Under the pieces are notes generated by a model. That model searched no databases, was not told the origin of the DNA, and saw only the letters and a program-made list of their open reading frames with translations. Source: an uncultured Maribacter sp. (lineage in GTDB: Bacteria; Bacteroidota; Bacteroidia; Flavobacteriales; Flavobacteriaceae). Taken from it: a stretch of 64,000 nt of DNA. Location of the stretch: contig CANNFY010000002.1 in the NCBI GenBank assembly GCA_947504045.1, positions 124,001 through 188,000 on the forward strand. The letters run 5' to 3'. The translations under genes and the position numbers were made by a program. Shown here piece after piece: positions 14,390-48,793 of the stretch (the stretch's first letter is position 1; each line of letters begins with the position of its first letter).

Positions 14390-15364
14390 ATGGTACAATG
14401 GGGTATTGTTGGTTGTGGAAATATTGCAAATAAATTTGCATCAGATTTAAAACTTGTACCTAATGCAAATATACAAGCTGTAGCATCTAGAAATTTAGAT
14501 AAAGCTAAAATTTTTGCTGATAATGTTAATGCGGCACACGCATACGGTAGTTATGAAGAGTTATTTAAAGATAAAAATGTAACTGTAGTTTATATAGCAA
14601 CTCCTCATAATAATCATGCCGATTTAAGCATACAAGCCATGAAAAATGGTAAGCATGTTTTATGTGAAAAGCCTTTAGGAATTAATGAGACTCAAGTAAA
14701 GGCAATGGTAAATATGTCAAAAAAAAATAATGTTTTTTTAATGGAAGGCTTATGGTCTAGATTTAACCCTACTATAAAAAAAGTTAAACATTTAATACAA
14801 GAAGGAGAGATTGGAGACCTACATTATTTAAAAGCCGATTTTGCATTTTATGGATTACATAAAGATAAAAACGGACGATTATTAAATATAGACTTAGCAG
14901 GTGGCTCTTTATTAGATATTGGACTTTATCCTGTTTTTTTAGCTTATTTATTTTTAGGTAAACCAAAAAAAATAATGGCCACGTCTAATTTTTATAGTAC
15001 AGGAATAGAAGTGCAAACTTCTATAATTTTTCATTATAAAAATGCACAAGCAATATTATATTCTGGCTTAAACTCTACTACAGAAACCTCTGCAGAATTT
15101 TCAGGATCAAAAGGGTCTATTAAAATACCAACCAGATGGCATGAAGCACAATCTTATATATTAAATTCATCTGAAAAAACTACTTCTGTTTCTATGCCTA
15201 CAAAAGGCAATGGTTTTACATATGAAATAGAGGAAGTGCAAAATTGTATTTTAGAAAATAAAATAGAAAGTAAACTGTGGAGTCATCAAAATAGTATAGA
15301 TTTAGCATATCTATTAGACACTATTCGTAAAGAAGCTGGCGTAATCTTTCCTTTTGAAGAATAA
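14390..15364 (+). CDS. Gfo/Idh/MocA family oxidoreductase
   Basis: GIVGCGNIANKFASDL and HVLCEKPLGIN. Confidence 0.92.
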   Translation: MVQWGIVGCGNIANKFASDLKLVPNANIQAVASRNLDKAKIFADNVNAAHAYGSYEELFKDKNVTVVYIATPHNNHADLSIQAMKNGKHVLCEKPLGINETQVKAMVNMSKKNNVFLMEGLWSRFNPTIKKVKHLIQEGEIGDLHYLKADFAFYGLHKDKNGRLLNIDLAGGSLLDIGLYPVFLAYLFLGKPKKIMATSNFYSTGIEVQTSIIFHYKNAQAILYSGLNSTTETSAEFSGSKGSIKIPTRWHEAQSYILNSSEKTTSVSMPTKGNGFTYEIEEVQNCILENKIESKLWSHQNSIDLAYLLDTIRKEAGVIFPFEE

Positions 15365-38690: not shown

Positions 38691-39503
38691 ATGGATAAAT
38701 TACCAAAAATTGCAGTACCAGTAGCATTTGTAATAATAGTACTGGCAATATTAATTTCTAAATCGGCAGTAACTATTGGGCCAGGAGAAGGAGGTGTAAT
38801 TTTTGAAACTTTTGGAGATGGTATTAATACCGAAAGAACATATGGAGAAGGTTTTCAGATTGTTGCTCCTTGGAATGATATGATTGTACAAAAAGTTCGT
38901 CAACAATCTATATCGGATAACATGAATGTACTTTCTGTAAACGGTTTAGATATTACTGTTAGTGGAACAATTTGGTTTGAACCTGAATTTAAAAGCCTAG
39001 GATTACTTATAAAAACAAAAGGAGAAGATTATATAAACGAATTATTAAGTCCTGCGGTAAATGCAGCTACAAAAAGTGTAGTAGGTAGGTATACTCCAGA
39101 GCAACTATATTCTAGTAAAAGAGATATTATAGAATTAGAAATTTTAGACGAAGTTAGAAAAGAGTTAGAAGGTCAATACGTAAACGTAAAACGTGTATTG
39201 GTAGAAAATGTAAAACTTCCGAATACGATAAAAGATGCTATTGAGCGTAAACTTAAACAAGAGCAAGAATCGTTAGAATACGAATTTAGGCTAGTTACAG
39301 CAAAAAAAGAAGCTGAAAAAGTAACTATTGAAGCGCAAGGTAAAGCAGATGCAAACCGTATTTTAAGTGCCTCTTTAACCGATAAAATTTTACAAGATAA
39401 AGGTATAGATGCAACTATAAAATTATCAGAGTCGCCAAATTCAAAAGTAATTGTAGTTGGTGGAGGAGATGCTGGTTTGCCTTTAATTTTAGGAAACAAA
39501 TAA
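38691..39503 (+). CDS. SPFH/prohibitin family protein
   Basis: Single N-terminal TM followed by SPFH domain (GPGEGGVIFETFG...GFQIVAPWNDMIVQKVRQQ). Confidence 0.92.
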   Translation: MDKLPKIAVPVAFVIIVLAILISKSAVTIGPGEGGVIFETFGDGINTERTYGEGFQIVAPWNDMIVQKVRQQSISDNMNVLSVNGLDITVSGTIWFEPEFKSLGLLIKTKGEDYINELLSPAVNAATKSVVGRYTPEQLYSSKRDIIELEILDEVRKELEGQYVNVKRVLVENVKLPNTIKDAIERKLKQEQESLEYEFRLVTAKKEAEKVTIEAQGKADANRILSASLTDKILQDKGIDATIKLSESPNSKVIVVGGGDAGLPLILGNK

Positions 39504-39598
39504 AGTAACTGTTAGTTTTAGTAGTAAAACAGTAATAGTTGTTAAAAAAACAGTTTTTGCTTTTATACAATTAAAATATATTTTACTTTTACAATATA

Positions 39599-39652
39599 AT
39601 GAGAAATAAAACAACACATCATCATTTTCATACTGGCTATCAAGCGAGGTGA
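39599..39652 (+). CDS. hisL: histidine operon leader peptide (17 aa, MRNKTTHHHFHTGYQAR)
   Basis: atg aga aat aaa aca aca cat cat cat ttt cat act ggc tat caa gcg agg tga; four His codons in five, 99 nt before hisG ATG, followed by a terminator. Confidence 0.9.
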   Translation: MRNKTTHHHFHTGYQAR

Positions 39653-39714
39653 TAATGTATTGTGTAAACTAAATATATATAACCCGTTTGAGAAATCAAG
39701 CGGGTTTTATTTTT
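39641..39714 (+). promoter_or_regulatory. his attenuator: alternative antiterminator/terminator pairing
   Basis: 39641-39650 caagcgaggt can pair (one bulged A) with 39682-39690 acccgtttg; the same arm pairs with 39697-39706 caagcgggtt to form the terminator. Confidence 0.8.
39681..39714 (+). terminator. rho-independent terminator inside the his leader
   Basis: aacccgtttg-agaaat-caagcgggttttatttt: 10-bp stem with one G-U, 6-nt loop, U-rich tail. Confidence 0.9.
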
Positions 39715-39751
39715 AAAACTATTTGATTTCCAAACAAAATTAAACTAAGGA

Positions 39752-40609
39752 ATGACAAAAATTAGAATTGCAATTCAGAAATCTGGGCGTTTAAATGAAG
39801 ACTCTATAGAAATACTTAAAAACTGTGGTATATCTATAGATAATGGTAAAGACCAATTAAAAGCATCGGCCCGAAATTTTCCAATGGAAGTATTTTATTT
39901 ACGTAATGGAGATATTCCACAATATTTAAAAGATGGTGTTGTAGATATTGCAATTATTGGAGAAAATGTATTAATTGAAAAAGGAGAAGGTATAGGTTTT
40001 GACGTAAGATTAGGTTTTTCTAAATGTAAAGTATCATTAGCAGTACCTAAAGATGTTGAATACCCTTCAGTAAAATATTTTGAAGGTAAGCGTATTGCTA
40101 CATCTTACCCAAATACAGTAAAAGAATACTTAAAAGAAAAAGGCATAACTGCAGATATTCATATAATTAATGGTTCTGTAGAAATTGCTCCTAATATAGG
40201 TTTAGCAGATGGTATTTGCGACATTGTTTCTAGTGGAAGTACATTATTTAAAAATGGACTAAAAGAAGTAGAAGTAATGTTAAAAAGTGAAGCTGTTTTA
40301 GCTGTGTCACCAAAAATATCTAAAGAGCGTAAAGAAATACTTAAAAAATTAGAATTTAGAATAAAGGCAGTTTTAACAGCAAGGCAGTCTAAATATGTAC
40401 TTTTAAATGCTCCAAACGATAAATTAAACCAAATTATATCTTTATTACCAGGTATGCGAAGCCCTACAGTTTTACCTTTAGCAGAAGAAGGTTGGAGCTC
40501 TGTACATACAGTAATAAACAAGCACAAATTTTGGGAAGTTATAGATGAATTAAAATTAGCTGGCGCAGAAGGTATATTAGTTTGCCCTATAGAAAAAATG
40601 GTATTGTAA
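39752..40609 (+). CDS. hisG: ATP phosphoribosyltransferase
   Basis: IRIAIQKSGRLNEDSIEIL; DGICDIVSSGSTLFKNGL. Confidence 0.96.
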   Translation: MTKIRIAIQKSGRLNEDSIEILKNCGISIDNGKDQLKASARNFPMEVFYLRNGDIPQYLKDGVVDIAIIGENVLIEKGEGIGFDVRLGFSKCKVSLAVPKDVEYPSVKYFEGKRIATSYPNTVKEYLKEKGITADIHIINGSVEIAPNIGLADGICDIVSSGSTLFKNGLKEVEVMLKSEAVLAVSPKISKERKEILKKLEFRIKAVLTARQSKYVLLNAPNDKLNQIISLLPGMRSPTVLPLAEEGWSSVHTVINKHKFWEVIDELKLAGAEGILVCPIEKMVL

Positions 40610-40619
40610 TTTTTTTAAG

Positions 40620-41066
40620 ATGAAAAATGATTTAAAAATTATTTTAATTCCGGAAGAAAAATTAGAAACTATATTGCCTTTAGTATATGACTTAAACAAC
40701 AAGAAAATAGATTTAGCTATACTAAAAAACCGTTTGGTTGAAATGAAAAAAATGAATTTTCAATGTATAGGGGTTTATGATACTAATAAATTAATTGGTA
40801 TTTGTGGCTTCTGGATTTTATATAAATTTTATATTGGGAAACATATAGAACCAGATAATGTTTTTATTTCTAAAGAATACAGAAGTAAAGGTGTAGGTAA
40901 ATTAATGTTAGATTGGATTTACAATTATGCTAAAGAAAATAATTGTAATAGTTCTGAGATTAATTGTTATGTAAAAAATACCAGAGGAGTACAATTTTGG
41001 GAAGAACAAGGGTATCTTCCAGAAGGTTACCATATGAGAAACGTTTTTGACAGGAATAATGAATAA
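40620..41066 (+). CDS. GNAT family N-acetyltransferase
   Basis: PDNVFISKEYRSKGVGKLMLDWIYNYAKEN; stop overlaps hisD start. Confidence 0.9.
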   Translation: MKNDLKIILIPEEKLETILPLVYDLNNKKIDLAILKNRLVEMKKMNFQCIGVYDTNKLIGICGFWILYKFYIGKHIEPDNVFISKEYRSKGVGKLMLDWIYNYAKENNCNSSEINCYVKNTRGVQFWEEQGYLPEGYHMRNVFDRNNE

Positions 41067-42348
41067 AATATACAATCCAAATAAAAAAGACTGGAAAACT
41101 ATTTTAAAACGACCAACACAAACGGTTGCAGATATAGAAGGTACAGTAACTAACATTTTTAAAGAAGTACAAGAAGGAGGTGATGCTGTTTTAGCAAAGT
41201 ATACTCAAAAGTTTGATGGTGTTGTATTAAATTCTATTACAGTTACTCCAAAAGAAATTTCTATTGCTGCCACGCTTATTTCTGAAGAATTAAAAAATGC
41301 TATTAAGTTAGCTAAAAATAATATTGAAGTTTTTCATGCGGCTCAAAAAACAACAAAAGTAGAAGTTGAAACTGCTAAAGGGGTACAATGTTGGCAAGAA
41401 AAACGCCCTATTCAAAAAGTTGGTTTATACATTCCGGGCGGTACAGCACCTTTGTTTTCTACCATTTTAATGCTTGCGGTACCCGCAAATATTGCAGGAT
41501 GTGAAGAAATTATTTTGTGTACACCACCAGATAAAGAAGGTAATGTAAACCCTGCTATTTTATATGCTGCAGACCTTTGTGGTGTAACTAAAATATTTAA
41601 AGTAGGAGGTATACAAGCCATTGCAGGAATGACATTTGGAACAGAAACCATGCCAGAGGTTTATAAAATTTTTGGACCAGGAAATCAGTTTGTTACTGTA
41701 GCTAAACAAATAGCCACAAAATACGGCGTAGCAATAGATATGCCTGCTGGACCTAGCGAACTTTTAGTAATGGCAGACGATTCTGCAAATGCAGCTTTTG
41801 TTGCTTCCGATTTATTAAGCCAAGCGGAACATGGTGTAGATAGTCAAGTAATTTTAGTATCTACTTCAAAAAATATGATAGTTGCTGTAGAGCAAGAAGT
41901 TGCCTTGCAACTAGAAAATTTACCAAGAAAAGCTATAGCAGAAAAAGCAATTGCAAATAGTAAACTTATTTATGTAGAGGAAGAACAAATTGCAATAGAT
42001 CTAATAAATGAGTACGGACCAGAACACTATATTTTGTGTGTTGGTAATGAAACACCTTTTATTTCTCAAATAAAAAATGCAGGTTCTGTATTTATTGGTA
42101 ATTACACTCCTGAAAGTGCCGGCGATTATGCTTCAGGTACCAACCATACATTACCAACAAACGGTTATGCAAAACAGTATAGCGGTGTAAATTTAGATAG
42201 TTTTATGAAGAGCATGACTTTTCAAAAAATATCAAGTAATGGAATTCAAGAAATAGGAAAAGCAATAGAATTAATGGCAGAAGCAGAAGGTTTATATGCA
42301 CATAAAAATGCTGTAACTCTACGTTTAAAAAGTTTAAAGAATGGATAA
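41059..42348 (+). CDS. hisD: histidinol dehydrogenase
   Basis: QKVGLYIPGGTAPLFSTILMLAVPA; IDMPAGPSELLV; start ATG 41059 preferred over upstream 41047. Confidence 0.96.
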   Translation: MNKIYNPNKKDWKTILKRPTQTVADIEGTVTNIFKEVQEGGDAVLAKYTQKFDGVVLNSITVTPKEISIAATLISEELKNAIKLAKNNIEVFHAAQKTTKVEVETAKGVQCWQEKRPIQKVGLYIPGGTAPLFSTILMLAVPANIAGCEEIILCTPPDKEGNVNPAILYAADLCGVTKIFKVGGIQAIAGMTFGTETMPEVYKIFGPGNQFVTVAKQIATKYGVAIDMPAGPSELLVMADDSANAAFVASDLLSQAEHGVDSQVILVSTSKNMIVAVEQEVALQLENLPRKAIAEKAIANSKLIYVEEEQIAIDLINEYGPEHYILCVGNETPFISQIKNAGSVFIGNYTPESAGDYASGTNHTLPTNGYAKQYSGVNLDSFMKSMTFQKISSNGIQEIGKAIELMAEAEGLYAHKNAVTLRLKSLKNG

Positions 42349-43387
42349 TTTTAATTTAGATAGTCTAGTAAGACCTAACATACAAAAATTAAAAGCATAT
42401 TCTTCTGCAAGAGGAGAATTTCAGAGTAATGGTAACCCAATGATGCTGTTAGATGCTAATGAGAGTCCATACGAAAACGGTCTTAATAGATATCCGGATC
42501 CGCAGCATATAGAATTAAGAACTAGATTATCGCAAATAAAAGAAGTTCCTGTAGAAAATATTCTTTTGGGTAATGGTAGCGATGAAATTATTAGTTTGCT
42601 TTTTAATGCCTTTTGTCAACCAAGAGAGGATAATGTAATTGTTTTGCCTCCAACATTTGGAATGTATGAGGTGCAAGCCAATATTAGTGATATACAATTA
42701 CAAAAGGTAGAACTTACTAAAGAATTTCAACCCAATGTAGAAGCCATATTAAATACAGCAAACGCAAATACTAAAATTCTTTTTCTGTGTAGTCCTAATA
42801 ATCCAACAGGAAATTCAATTCAGCCAAAAATAATAGAAGAGTTACTTACTAATTTTAAAGGTTTAATTGTATTAGATGAAGCATATATAGATTTTAGTGC
42901 GGAAGGTAGTTGGTTAAAAAAATTAAACAAATTTCCTAATTTAATTATAATTCAGACTTTATCTAAAGCATATGGTATGGCAGGTATTCGTTTGGGAATG
43001 TGTTATGCATCACAAGAAATAATAGAAGTTTTAAACAGACTAAAATTGCCTTATAATTTAAATGTATTAACTCAAAAAAAGGCATTAGATAAATTAAGTA
43101 ATCTACCATTAATACAAGAAAAAATTGGGAGACTTTTAGAGAGTAGAGAATTTGTTTTAAGTCAATTACATAAAATAAAGTGCATTACTAAAGTATATTC
43201 TACAGATGCTAATTTTATTTTAGTAAAATTTGATGATGCAACTAAAAGATATAAAGAATTAATAGCAAAAGGTATTGTAGTTCGTAATAGAAGTACACAA
43301 CCTTTATGCGATAGTACACTGCGTTTAACAATAGGAACCAGAGAAGAAAATATATTACTGCTTAAAGCATTAAAAGAATTAGTATAA
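42341..43387 (+). CDS. hisC: histidinol-phosphate aminotransferase
   Basis: [48 protein letters not shown]. Confidence 0.96.
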
Positions 43388-43388
43388 A

Positions 43389-44528
43389 ATGAAAAAAGTA
43401 CTTTTTATAGACCGTGATGGAACTTTGGTTTTAGAACCACCAGTAGATTATCAATTAGATAGTTTAGAAAAGCTTGAATATTATCCAAAAGTTTTTCAAT
43501 ACATGGCAAAAATAGCTTCTGAATTAGATTATGAATTGGTAATGGTTACAAATCAAGATGGTTTAGGAACAGACTCTTTTCCAGAAGATACTTTTTGGCC
43601 AGCTCAAAATAAAATTATTTCAGCTTTTGAAAAAGAAGGTGTTGTTTTTTCAGAAGTTTGTATTGATAAAACATTTCCGCATGAAAATGCAGAAACACGT
43701 AAACCAAGAACAGGTTTGCTTACCAAATATTTTAATAAACAAGAATATGATTTAGAAAATTCTTTTGTTTTAGGAGACCGTATTACAGATATGGAATTAG
43801 CTAAAAATCTTGGTACTAAAGGAATATTTTTATCCGAAGATCCTGAACTGGGAGCAGATGAAATAGAATCTGAAAAACAAACTATTTTAAATGCCATTGC
43901 ATTAACTTCTACCGATTGGGAAAAGATATACGAATTTTTAAAATTACAAGACAGAGTAGCAGAAATTACACGTAACACCAATGAAACTAAAATTTATATT
44001 AAATTAAATTTAGACGGTTCTGGTAAAAATGATATTTCTACTGGGTTAGATTTCTTTGATCATATGTTAGATCAAATTGGTCGCCATGGCTCTATGGATT
44101 TAACTGTAAAAGTAGATGGAGATTTACATGTAGATGAGCACCATACCATAGAGGATACTATGATTGCTCTAGGAGAATTATTCCATAAAGCTTTAGGAAA
44201 CAAACTTGGTATAGAACGTTATGGTTTTTGTTTGCCTATGGATGATTGTTTGGCTCAAGTTGCTGTAGATTTTGGCGGTCGTAATTGGCTAGAGTGGGAT
44301 GCAGAGTTTAAAAGAGAAATGATAGGAAAAATGCCAACAGAAATGTTTTTTCACCTTTTTAAATCCTTTACAGATGGTGCAAAATGTAATTTAAATATTA
44401 AAGCAGAAGGCGTAAATGAGCATCATAAAATAGAAGGTATTTTTAAAGCTTTTGCAAAGGCAATGAAAATGGCTGTTAAAAGAGATGTAAATAAAATGTT
44501 TTTACCAAGCACAAAAGGAATGCTATAA
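43389..44528 (+). CDS. hisB: bifunctional histidinol-phosphatase / imidazoleglycerol-phosphate dehydratase
   Basis: HAD phosphatase [13 protein letters not shown] fused to [26 protein letters not shown]. Confidence 0.96.
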
Positions 44529-44530
44529 TT

Positions 44531-44585
44531 AGTTGTTAGTTTTTGGTTGTTAGTAATTTGTTGCAACAACCAAAAAACGAGCAAC
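44531..44585 (+). repeat. inverted repeat/hairpin in hisB-hisH intercistronic gap
   Basis: Perfect 12-bp core tttttggttgtt (44540-44551) / aacaaccaaaaa (44565-44576), plus outer gttg/caac pairing; no U-tract. Confidence 0.7.
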
Positions 44586-44599
44586 GAACAACCAACAGA

Positions 44600-45181
44600 A
44601 TGAAAATTGTAATAATAAATTACGGAGCAGGAAATATACAGAGTATTAAATTTGCTATTAAACGCTTAGGATATGAGGCTGTTTTAACGGATAATGTTGA
44701 AGAAATAAAAGCAGCAGATAAAGTTATTTTCCCTGGAGTAGGAGAGGCTAGTAGCGCAATGTCTAAACTTATAGATAGTGGTCTAGATACTCTTGTGCCA
44801 ACTTTAAAACAACCAGTTTTAGGTATTTGTTTAGGTATGCAATTAATGTGTAATGCAACCGAAGAAGGTAATACAAAAGGTTTGGGGATTTTTGATGTTA
44901 ATGTTGTAAAATTTTCTACCAATGTAAAAGTTCCACAAATTGGATGGAATCAAATTTTAGACTTAAAAACACCTTTGTTTTCTAAGGTAGAAGATAATGC
45001 TCATATATATTTAGTGCATAGTTTTTATGCTCCTATTTGTAAGGAAACTATTGCTGTAGCGGATTATGGCATTAAATATTCCGCAGCATTAAATAAAGGA
45101 AATTTTTACGGCACCCAATTTCACCCAGAAAAGAGTAGTATAATTGGCGAACAGATATTGCGTAATTTCTTAGAAATGTAA
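44600..45181 (+). CDS. hisH: imidazole glycerol phosphate synthase subunit HisH
   Basis: MKIVIINYGAGNIQSIKFAIKRLG; PVLGICLGMQLM; FYGTQFHPEKS. ATG at 44600 preferred; ORF-track start 44543 lies in the hairpin. Confidence 0.95.
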   Translation: MKIVIINYGAGNIQSIKFAIKRLGYEAVLTDNVEEIKAADKVIFPGVGEASSAMSKLIDSGLDTLVPTLKQPVLGICLGMQLMCNATEEGNTKGLGIFDVNVVKFSTNVKVPQIGWNQILDLKTPLFSKVEDNAHIYLVHSFYAPICKETIAVADYGIKYSAALNKGNFYGTQFHPEKSSIIGEQILRNFLEM

Positions 45182-45609
45182 TGGCTTTACCTTCCTATTA
45201 TATATCAACAGATAAAAAACTATTGGATGTAAATTTTATTCATAGTTATATTAGTACTATTTCTTATTGGGGTAAAGGTAGAAGTGTTGAACAAATAGAA
45301 AGTACCATAAAAAACTCGTTATGTTTTGGTGTATATACCAAAGATAATAGTCAGATTGGTTTTGCAAGGGTAGTTACAGATTGTACTTTTTTTGGTTATA
45401 TAATGGATGTTATTATTCATGAAGATTATCAAAATAAAGGAATAGGAAAGCAACTGGTTGCCTTTATACTTAATAATAAAACAATTAAAAAGTTAAGTAC
45501 CATAGCTCTTAAAACAAAAGATGCGCACGGACTTTATGAAAAATATGGATTTAAAGTAGTAGGAAACTCTACTTTATGGATGTCCTTAGACAAACAAAAA
45601 TTAGAATGA
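45181..45609 (+). CDS. GNAT family N-acetyltransferase
   Basis: [28 protein letters not shown] overlap with hisH and ATGA overlap with hisA. Confidence 0.9.
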
Positions 45610-46334
45610 GAATTATACCAGCAATAGATATTATAGAAGGACAATGTGTTAGATTATCTAAAGGAGATTATACTACAAAAAAAGTATATAATGAGGACCC
45701 TTTAGAAGTGGCTAAAGAATTTCAAGATCATGGTATAGAATATTTGCATTTAGTAGATTTAGATGGTGCAAAATCTAAACATATTGTAAACCATAAAATA
45801 TTAGAGCAAATAGCTAGTAAAACTAATTTAAAGATAGATTTTGGTGGTGGATTAAAAACAGATGACGATTTAAGAATTGCTTTTGAAAGTGGTGCAAACC
45901 AAATAACAGGAGGTAGTATTGCAGTAAAAGACAGAGAAACTTTTACACAGTGGATTTCAACGTATGGTCCTAATAAAATTATACTTGGTGCTGATGCTAT
46001 GGATGAAAAAGTTGCAGTTTCGGGTTGGTTAGAAGAATCTAAAGAAGAGTTAGTTCCTTTTATTCAGGGCTACCAAAAAAAAGGAGTAAACTATGTTATT
46101 TGTACCGATATTAGTAAAGATGGTATGTTAGAAGGTCCTTCTTTTGCTTTATATGAAAAAATATTAAAGCAATCAGAATCCGGATTAAAACTTATTGCAA
46201 GTGGTGGTATTTCTACTTTTGATGAATTACCAAAACTAGCCGATCTAGGTTGTGAAGGAACCATTATAGGAAAAGCTATTTATGAAAACAGAATCAGTTT
46301 AAAACAACTTGAAAAATTTATTCTAAATGTCTAG
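45606..46334 (+). CDS. hisA: phosphoribosylformimino-5-aminoimidazole carboxamide ribotide isomerase
   Basis: [40 protein letters not shown]; start ATG 45606. Confidence 0.96.
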
Positions 46335-46845
46335 TAATTATTCACAATTACAAGAAGAAATATGTAAAAATGCTATTTTCAGAATGGATGAAAGTAGCCG
46401 TATGATTCATATAGCTCTAAGTAATTTAGAAGAAAAATATATCTGGATGCGCCCTAATAATAATTCTAATAGCATAGGAAATCAAATATTACATTTATGT
46501 GGTAATATTTCTCAGTATGCCATATGTTCCTTAGGAAATATAGAAGACTTTAGAGAGCGAGAGTTAGAATTTACAACTAAAGAAGGGTACACAAAAAAAG
46601 AGTTACTATATAAATTAAATTCCGTTGTGAATACCGCTAAAGAAACAATAAATAATTGTACTACAGCCAATTTAATTAAGAAAAGAGAAGTGCAAGGCTT
46701 TGTATTTTCCGGAATTGGAATCATACTTCATGTTGTAGAGCATTATTCATATCATACCGGACAAATTGCCTTTTGGGTAAAACAATTAAAAGATAAACCA
46801 TTAGGTTTTTATGATGGAATCGATTTAACAGTTAAAAATAAATAA
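46327..46845 (+). CDS. DinB family protein
   Basis: [16 protein letters not shown] and [19 protein letters not shown]. Confidence 0.85.
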
Positions 46846-47600
46846 TGTTAACAAAAAGAATAATACCCTGTTTAGATATTAAAAACGGAAGAACTGTAAA
46901 AGGTGTAAATTTTGTTGATTTAAGAGACGCAGGTGATCCTGTAGAATTAGCAGAAATTTATGCTGCCTCTGGGGCAGATGAATTAGTTTTTTTAGATATA
47001 TCTGCAACAGAAGAAAGAAGAAAAACTTTAGCAGATTTAGTGTATAGAGTTGGTGAAAAGGTTAATATTCCTTTTACTGTTGGTGGTGGTATATCTTCTA
47101 TAGAAGATGTAGATATACTTTTGCAAAATGGAGCAGACAAAGTGTCTATAAATTCATCCGCTGTTAAAAACCCACAGTTAATAAACGATTTATCTGCTAA
47201 ATTTGGGGCACAATGTATTGTTGTTGCAATAGATGCAAAACAAATAGATGGAGAATGGATTGTACATTTAGTTGGAGGCAAAGTGCCTACAGAATTAAAT
47301 TTATTTGATTGGGCAAAAGAAGTAGAAAAAAGAGGTGCAGGAGAAATACTTTTTACCTCAATGAATAATGATGGTACAAAAGACGGATTTGCAAATGAGG
47401 CTTTAAATAAATTGTCTACAGAATTAAATATTCCTATAATTGCTTCTGGCGGTGCAGGAAGTATACAGCATTTTACAGATACTTTTATAAAAGGAAAAGC
47501 GGATGCAGCATTAGCAGCAAGTGTCTTTCATTTTAAAGAAATAGAAATTGTAGATTTAAAGCGTCAGTTAAAAAAAGAAAATATACCTGTAAGACTATAA
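46845..47600 (+). CDS. hisF: imidazole glycerol phosphate synthase subunit HisF
   Basis: [42 protein letters not shown]. Confidence 0.97.
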
Positions 47601-47603
47601 GTT

Positions 47604-48185
47604 TTGATTAAGGCAACAAAAGAAGATAAAGATTTAGTAGTTCGTATTTTGGTTTCTGCATTTAAAGATTTAGAAGAAGATAATTCTATAAATTTTATTG
47701 TACAAAATGGAAAAGATAGAATTGCAAGAATGGAAGCTCTGATGGGATATTTATTTGAAAAGTCTATGCTTTTTGGGGAAATATATTTATCAAAAAATAA
47801 GAATGCATGTTTACTATTATCTTTTTCAGAAAAGGAAAAAGTTACTTTAAAAACTATTTTTTTAGATATACAATTACTTTTTAAATGTATTGGTTTTAAA
47901 AATGTTTTTAATGTTTTAAAAAGACAAAAAATTATTAAAGATTTTTATCCGTCAGAACCACATATAAAACCTGTTATTATGGGAGCTCTAAAAGAAGCTT
48001 ATGGTAGCGGTTCTGCAGCAAGATTAGTGCTTAGAGTAATGAGTCAATATAAAAAAAATAAAAAACCAGTGGTTCTAGATACAGTTTCTGAATATAATAT
48101 AAAGTTGTATCAAAAATTTGGGTTTAAAATAATAAGAGAAGAAAAAACCTTAGGTTTTCCTATGAGTTTATTACGATTAAATTAA
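47604..48185 (+). CDS. GNAT family N-acetyltransferase
   Basis: 193-aa GNAT-like ORF (MGALKEAYGSGSAARLVLRVMSQYKKN, YNIKLYQKFGFKIIREEKT); TTG start adjoining hisF. Confidence 0.8.
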   Translation: MIKATKEDKDLVVRILVSAFKDLEEDNSINFIVQNGKDRIARMEALMGYLFEKSMLFGEIYLSKNKNACLLLSFSEKEKVTLKTIFLDIQLLFKCIGFKNVFNVLKRQKIIKDFYPSEPHIKPVIMGALKEAYGSGSAARLVLRVMSQYKKNKKPVVLDTVSEYNIKLYQKFGFKIIREEKTLGFPMSLLRLN

Positions 48186-48193
48186 TAGAAATA

Positions 48194-48793
48194 ATGAAAA
48201 TAGATTTCGATAAAAATAACGATGGCTTAGTACCTGCAATTATTCAAGATGCTACAACTAAAAATGTACTTATGCTTGGGTATTTAAACCAAGAGGCATA
48301 TGATAAGACCGTAGAAACTAAAAAGGTTACTTTCTACAGTAGATCAAAAAATAGATTGTGGACAAAAGGAGAAGAAAGTGGTAATTTCTTAAATTTAGTA
48401 TCTATAAAAAATGATTGTGATCACGATACTTTGCTAATTTCTGTGTCTCCAGTAGGACCAACTTGTCATACAGGAACAGATACGTGTTGGAGTGAAACAA
48501 ACGATTCTAATTTTGGATTTCTTTCTAAGCTAGAAAAAACAATAGAAGAACGTAGAACATCTTCAGATGGTTCAAAATCTTATGTAGCATCGTTATTTGA
48601 AAAAGGAATTAATAAAATAGCACAAAAAGTAGGAGAGGAAGCTGTAGAGGTTGTTATTGAAGCTAAAGACAATGATGATAATTTGTTTTTAAATGAAAGT
48701 GCCGATTTACTTTTTCATTATTTAATGTTATTACAAGCAAAAGGATTTACACTAAAAGATGTTGAGGAAGTTTTAAAAGGAAGAGAAAAATAA
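48194..48793 (+). CDS. hisIE: bifunctional phosphoribosyl-AMP cyclohydrolase / phosphoribosyl-ATP diphosphatase
   Basis: VLMLGYLNQEAYDKTVETKKVTFYSRSKNRLWTKGEESGN; KVGEEAVEVVIEAK. Confidence 0.97.
   Translation: MKIDFDKNNDGLVPAIIQDATTKNVLMLGYLNQEAYDKTVETKKVTFYSRSKNRLWTKGEESGNFLNLVSIKNDCDHDTLLISVSPVGPTCHTGTDTCWSETNDSNFGFLSKLEKTIEERRTSSDGSKSYVASLFEKGINKIAQKVGEEAVEVVIEAKDNDDNLFLNESADLLFHYLMLLQAKGFTLKDVEEVLKGREK

Follow-up and report, generated by a model that had tools for sequence, protein, structure and literature searches.

A leader-peptide attenuator upstream of hisG in Flavobacteriaceae with a downstream pairing arm and a possible second level of regulation

In the enterobacterial his leader (hisL; Rfam RF00514, His_leader), a leader peptide contains a run of His residues, a protector hairpin covers the His codons, a terminator lies before hisG, and switching is mediated by the ribosome. 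These features are shared by the locus described here. Its attenuator region occupies positions 39599-39714 of the window (the whole stretch of 64,000 nucleotides that was analysed) and lies directly 5' of hisG in the complete his operon of a Maribacter-like genome. Over its full length, the RF00514 model aligned to the window with a score of 33 bits (E 5e-4). This is below the gathering score of 49 bits, which none of 20 relatives reached either. Compared with the enterobacterial leader, the middle stem in the window is reduced to almost nothing. Moreover, the antiterminator strand of Flavobacteriaceae (segment B) is located inside the leader ORF, where it repeats the terminator arm, and a downstream arm (segment D') is present in addition.

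A described element closer to this locus comes from Flavobacterium psychrophilum (PMC9723704). Main-text passages of that study report hints that amino-acid operons are attenuated through leader peptides, as well as structured 5' elements, that of hisG included, which are conserved in other Flavobacteriaceae genera and have no Rfam matches; a pheA 5' element is also named. The hisG element belongs to the same gene in the same family and likewise lacks an Rfam match. Based on the gene and family named in the main text, it is probably the same element as the attenuator in our window, although those passages give no peptide, helices or downstream arm. The attenuator is therefore of a known kind, and D' is the new part. 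In a search of the open literature, neither the peptide nor the helices nor the downstream arm were found described for the his operon of Bacteroidota. Vitreschak and colleagues reportedly predicted attenuators of amino-acid operons by comparative genomics in 2004, including ones in Bacteroidetes/Chlorobi, which are said to be of the same mechanism class and from the same phylum as the one in the window. The downstream D' arm is a previously unremarked addition to this attenuator, and it may provide a second control layer.

The features of the locus are collected in Table 1. HisG is 93% identical to its closest named relative, from Maribacter, and its identity is backed by two Pfam domains. 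Pfam also supports hisD, hisC (as an aminotransferase), hisB and hisF, and we assigned hisH, hisA and hisIE by reading their translations only. The operon runs on through hisIE. Non-his genes within it (40620-41066, 45181-45609, 46327-46845 and 47604-48185) encode two GNAT acetyltransferases, a member of the DUF1572/DinB family and an acetyltransferase-like protein that has no Pfam match.

Table 1. Features of the his attenuator and operon, in window coordinates
Feature	Coordinates	Strand	Basis or remark
Putative -7 promoter box, TACTTTTA (consensus in Bacteroidota, TAnnTTTG)	39584..39591	+	sequence reading, weak
Leader peptide ORF MRNKTTHHHFHTGYQAR, TGA stop	39599..39652	+	sequence and family-wide leaders
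Regulatory His codons CAT CAT CAT TTT CAT	39617..39631	+	sequence
Protector (1:2) hairpin	39623..39657	+	fold -10.8 kcal/mol in window; family-wide pairing
Segment B, antiterminator strand within the leader ORF end (TCAAGCG-a-GGT)	39640..39650	+	-12.7 kcal/mol with C
Segment C, terminator 5' arm, shared strand	39681..39691	+	fold and family alignment
Part of C and terminator loop (GTTTGAGAAATC), pairs with D'	39686..39697	+	fold and covariation
Segment D, terminator 3' arm	39696..39706	+	99.4% of cells paired, 125 loci
U-tract of intrinsic terminator	39705..39714	+	sequence, fold
Segment D' (GATTTCCAAAC), third partner of terminator arm and loop	39725..39735	+	ends 16 nt before hisG
hisG (ATP phosphoribosyltransferase), his operon gene 1	39752..40609	+	Pfam PF01634 4e-49, PF08029 6e-30
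Remaining his operon: hisD, hisC, hisB, hisH, hisA, hisF, hisIE, non-his genes interspersed	41059..48793	+	

To determine how widespread the leader is, 151 Flavobacteriaceae genomes were sampled, one per genus, and the DNA upstream of hisG was read in the 126 that contain this gene. Nearly all of these genera have a His-run leader peptide 5' of hisG. A leader was assigned in 125 of the loci, and the remaining one ends at a contig edge. An ATG ORF with at least three His in five residues or fewer was found in 94% of the 125 upstream regions, all from different genera, versus 0.2% of dinucleotide-shuffled upstream regions, so chance does not explain the spread. Among named close relatives, 74 of 80 contain the strict leader pattern. 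The leaders are 17-19 codons long across the family. The first His is codon 7 in 108 of them, CAT is used 471 times and CAC 44 times, and four leaders have two His codons only. Most end in QAR, QAS, QAK or QAN. The original prediction, which had proposed a 17-codon His-rich ORF with His codons at 39617-39631, was correct in all coordinates (its TGA is at 39650-39652). It had also suggested aligning the regions 5' of hisG across Flavobacteriaceae, and in this alignment the His run and both helices that it had named are conserved. An exact TAnnTTTG occurs no more than 60 nt from the leader ATG in 46 of the 125 loci; given the putative -7 box in the window, the transcript possibly starts only a few nt 5' of the leader ATG.

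The region 39590-39716 folds with a z-score of -5.9 relative to shuffles. An intrinsic terminator lies between the leader ORF and the first structural gene, with a GAAA loop (39692-39695), a predicted energy of -15.7 kcal/mol and a T-rich tail. Its presence had been predicted, but with a stem of 10 bp and a loop of 6 nt instead of the 11 bp and 4 nt found here, and the stem ends about 45 nt before hisG, not about 40 nt. On a structure-blind alignment of the 125 loci, 99.4% of the terminator cells are paired, with double changes. The same 5' arm has a second, mutually exclusive partner in segment B. As originally proposed, caagcgaggt (39641-39650) pairs with this arm; the helix has 7 + 3 bp and contains a bulged A and a single G-U. 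On the structure-blind alignment, 90.9% of B:C cells are paired versus 23-53% in slid controls, and the B:C covariation score exceeds all shuffles (0/500). The whole 177-column alignment was also tested against a tree-simulated null, where a single terminator pair passed and nothing more.

Segment B takes part in a further helix. His codons 3-4 and the codons that follow pair with the 3' half of the antiterminator strand, the stop codon and AATG, forming a protector hairpin in the position of the 1:2 hairpin of the classical layout. Across the family, 83% of its pair cells are paired, with 100 double-change cells, versus 35-50% when slid. In a count over 30 sequences, six of its pairs changed on both sides. 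None of 500 shuffles equalled the two-helix structure on any measure of the covariation count. The locus had been thought to need only two alternative helices and thus to be simpler than the enterobacterial leader. This view is contradicted by the protector, a third helix conserved with compensatory changes, and it also overlooks a fourth pairing, which joins the terminator arm and loop to a segment 5' of hisG. Since the protector is equivalent to the 1:2 hairpin known from classical attenuators, the element is more than a reduced switch of two helices. Another pairing was considered, between the 5' half of the leader (39611-39619) and the region after the stop codon (39655-39665). It is possible from the sequences, with own pairing better than swapped pairing in 111 of 125 loci. 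We do not claim it, given its weak counts in the alignment (65%) and its weak form in the window.

In an equilibrium fold of the full leader, the terminator always beats the antiterminator, even with a stalled ribosome. The switch must therefore be kinetic, as in other attenuators, and because an equilibrium fold is unable to show switching, we folded the transcripts of the 125 loci only up to the terminator loop, with the ribosome footprint masked out. With the ribosome on the His codons, B:C formed in nearly all loci and its mean probability was 0.82 (0.98 in the window), versus 0.03 (0.00 in the window) with the ribosome at the stop codon. Thus, in this model, a ribosome on the His codons frees the antiterminator and one at the stop codon covers it. 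Without a ribosome the value was intermediate, with a mean of 0.39. It was 0.77 in the window, indicating that the protector is not tight there.

These values are consistent with the following order of events. When His-tRNA is scarce, the ribosome would stall on the four His codons and the protector hairpin would open. B could then pair with C, and RNA polymerase would continue into hisG. With ample His-tRNA, the ribosome would reach the stop codon and cover B, C:D would form, and transcription would end at about 39714. If the leader is not translated, the protector hairpin would partly hold B, which would favour termination. The originally proposed His-responsive, ribosome-mediated transcription attenuator, with its antiterminator strand at the end of the leader ORF, is supported by conservation and by the ribosome-footprint folding. 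We consider it very likely that transcription of the his operon is attenuated by this element in a histidine-dependent, ribosome-mediated way and that its layout is the classical one. The evidence consists of the sequence, its family-wide conservation and compensatory change, from which we infer the response to histidine and the co-transcriptional order.

Two other explanations of the leader region were weighed. Short His-rich peptides are able to bind metals, and the ORF could accordingly encode a small protein (for example, a metal-binding one) without a regulatory role, next to a constitutive terminator. Several observations make this extremely unlikely. The ORF is always directly 5' of hisG, with a single strong copy of the element in the window's genome, and it is tied to a terminator that has a conserved alternative partner. 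The same genome has a Trp-rich ORF before trpE and a Phe-rich ORF before pheA, each with a terminator. Across the family, the length and the C-terminus of the peptide drift while the RNA stays. In three loci (L084, L089 and L098) the peptide even stops 5' of segment B, yet the B sequence is kept, which points to selection on the RNA and not on the end of the peptide. The second explanation is that a tRNA-sensing T-box or a protein-bound terminator controls the operon instead. Passages of PMC9413887 describe T-box control of his genes in some Firmicutes. However, there is no Rfam T-box match: T-box covariance models gave none at gathering in the window, and none with E up to 10 in 39500-39800. 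In addition, neither mechanism needs the conserved His run of the predicted leader peptide, and the chance that either operates here is practically negligible.

Unlike B and the terminator, segment D' is found between the U-tract and hisG, where it is complementary to the upper terminator arm and loop. In the window the two strands form 11 bp with one bulged A (-10.9 kcal/mol over the paired core and -13.4 kcal/mol with flanks). Across the family, the mean energy of a locus's own D' pairing is -10.75 versus -7.24 for swapped partners. With a permutation standard deviation of 0.19, this places the own mean about 17 standard deviations from the permutation mean. Own pairing was better than swapped pairing in 102 of 125 loci. 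Most of the terminator-loop bases lack a further partner in the leader and nonetheless vary in step with D'. The first variable loop pair occurs as T-A in 30 loci, A-T in 29, C-G in 14 and T-G in 10. Among the close relatives of the window, most substitutions in D' preserve the pairing. Here, D' segments of loci with a GAAA loop prefer their own loop over GCAA in 30 of 36 cases, and the converse is true in 28 of 31.

Compensatory change in D' was also assessed on the hisG tree. Compensatory double changes fell on 15 branches versus 0-6 for slid controls, and the two loop pairs had 10 such branches versus 0-1 when slid. In a pairing-blind test against a tree-simulated null, run with three aligners, the D' loop pairs take second and third place among all column pairs. 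They are level with accepted terminator pairs in this test but do not pass alone (E 0.1-1.1). An E of 0.0014 was obtained on loci preselected for pairing, and this preselection biases the value. Although each of these tests has its limits, together they leave us in little doubt that the pairing of C and the loop with D' is real. The helices are defined well enough for testing, and D' is kept by compensatory change in most genera. About one genus in three lacks D' or has a weak form of it; these are mostly genera with short spacers between terminator and hisG, and D' is thus dispensable for attenuation. In other families of Bacteroidia, strong D' segments were found only at loci with a terminator of the Flavobacteriaceae type (L229, L231, L235 and L257). 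One further locus, L238, had a low score as well, although it has no convincing terminator. Several small genomes (1.3-2.2 Mb) keep the attenuator without D' and the spacer (e.g. L007, L008, L063, L103, L108 and L120).

What could D' do? Being 3' of the termination point, it cannot influence the decision to terminate. In read-through RNA, it would be a further possible partner of C and the terminator loop, and this pairing would lower initiation at hisG whenever B is not holding C. During starvation B would hold C and leave D' free; otherwise, C could pair with D' in mRNA that has already been made. The position of D' bears on this proposal. Its end is 16 nt from the hisG ATG in the window, and in 78% of loci this distance departs from the median by at most 3 nt. 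The distance to the terminator is looser (within 3 nt in 49% of loci). Messages of Flavobacterium johnsoniae avoid structure between -20 and +20 of the start codon, where it tunes initiation (PMC6847099), and passages of PMC9976891 describe Flavobacterium ribosomes as not using Shine-Dalgarno pairing. The tie of D' to the start codon, together with these two properties, favours an effect on hisG initiation. Tentatively, then, we take the most likely role of D' to be that of a translational second layer that works through the same shared strand.

A related mechanism is known from the cat and erm leaders, where translational attenuation sequesters the start site itself. If our reading of D' is true, a stalled leader ribosome would likewise free the region before a downstream start. 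It differs in that the D' helix ends about 16 nt upstream of the start and is combined with a transcription terminator.

Alternatively, D' could govern the fate of the read-through mRNA, through its stability, its processing or an opened terminator hairpin, rather than initiation. Helices in 5' regions often determine mRNA decay. C:D' (-14.5 kcal/mol) is not clearly stronger than C:D (-15.4 kcal/mol), but the two are similar enough that D' could stop the 5' region from becoming trapped in the terminator fold. Conversely, the spacing of D' is set from the hisG start and not from the terminator, and no processing signal was seen, which makes this role rather unlikely. Less likely again is that D' acts in trans, with the terminated leader RNA, which would be abundant at high histidine, binding D' of the full-length his mRNA through its loop and repressing hisG. 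The terminator-loop positions that co-vary with D', most of them without another partner in the leader, would fit such a role, and in Sinorhizobium the attenuator RNA rnTrpL and its leader peptide both act in trans (PMC7298713). However, the same strand is available in cis at a far higher local concentration, D' also matches positions of the C arm that are buried in the terminated hairpin, and no precedent for such autoregulation was found in Bacteroidota. We consider action in trans improbable.

With D' as a translational layer, the terminator 5' arm would be a strand shared three ways: with the leader for read-through, with its own 3' arm for termination and with D' for translational damping. 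We propose this with the same reserve as the role of D' itself. If true, one leader ribosome would set both the transcription and the translation of the his operon, and existing his mRNA could be shut off once histidine returns. D' thus suggests joint control of transcription and translation by one leader ribosome in bacteria without Shine-Dalgarno pairing.

Beyond Flavobacteriaceae, a class-level sample showed that most hisG genes in other Bacteroidia families are preceded by a His-run ORF, usually with a terminator. The helix sequences differ (GGCTTACC.../GGTAAGCC), and a near-copy of the terminator 3' arm is often found close to the leader stop. Judging from these loci (L207-L260), where the helix sequences are unrelated and the plan is the same, the switch seems to have kept its plan through a replacement of its sequences. 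In Flavobacteriaceae, and probably in most Bacteroidia, histidine synthesis is by default under leader-peptide attenuation, and no Rfam family captures it. Six loci (L223, L224, L238, L239, L246 and L255) have a His-rich leader ORF and no clear intrinsic terminator 5' of hisG, and such loci may use another read-out.

Genomes without hisG were also searched with the model, and nothing convincing was found apart from one relic. In this genome (G027; L266, contig C11 near 14401-14521), which has no intact hisG, the His leader (MNNSFLHHHHILFHALAR) and the terminator survive. The first hisG codons are fused in frame to what appear to be the last hisIE codons, as if the entire operon between the hisG start and the hisIE end had been deleted.

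Finally, the genome of the window contains other candidate attenuators, with no ilvD leader found. In front of trpE (L261, contig C7) there is an ORF for a Trp leader peptide (MKNLKLNTWWWNNLRKTS) and, after it, a terminator, which by its sequence is a second leader-peptide attenuator of this genome. On contig C5 (L264), pheA lies downstream of a Phe-rich ORF (MTKKYFFNGFTFYFFFKRSTGLF) and of a strong terminator, an arrangement fitting a Phe attenuator.
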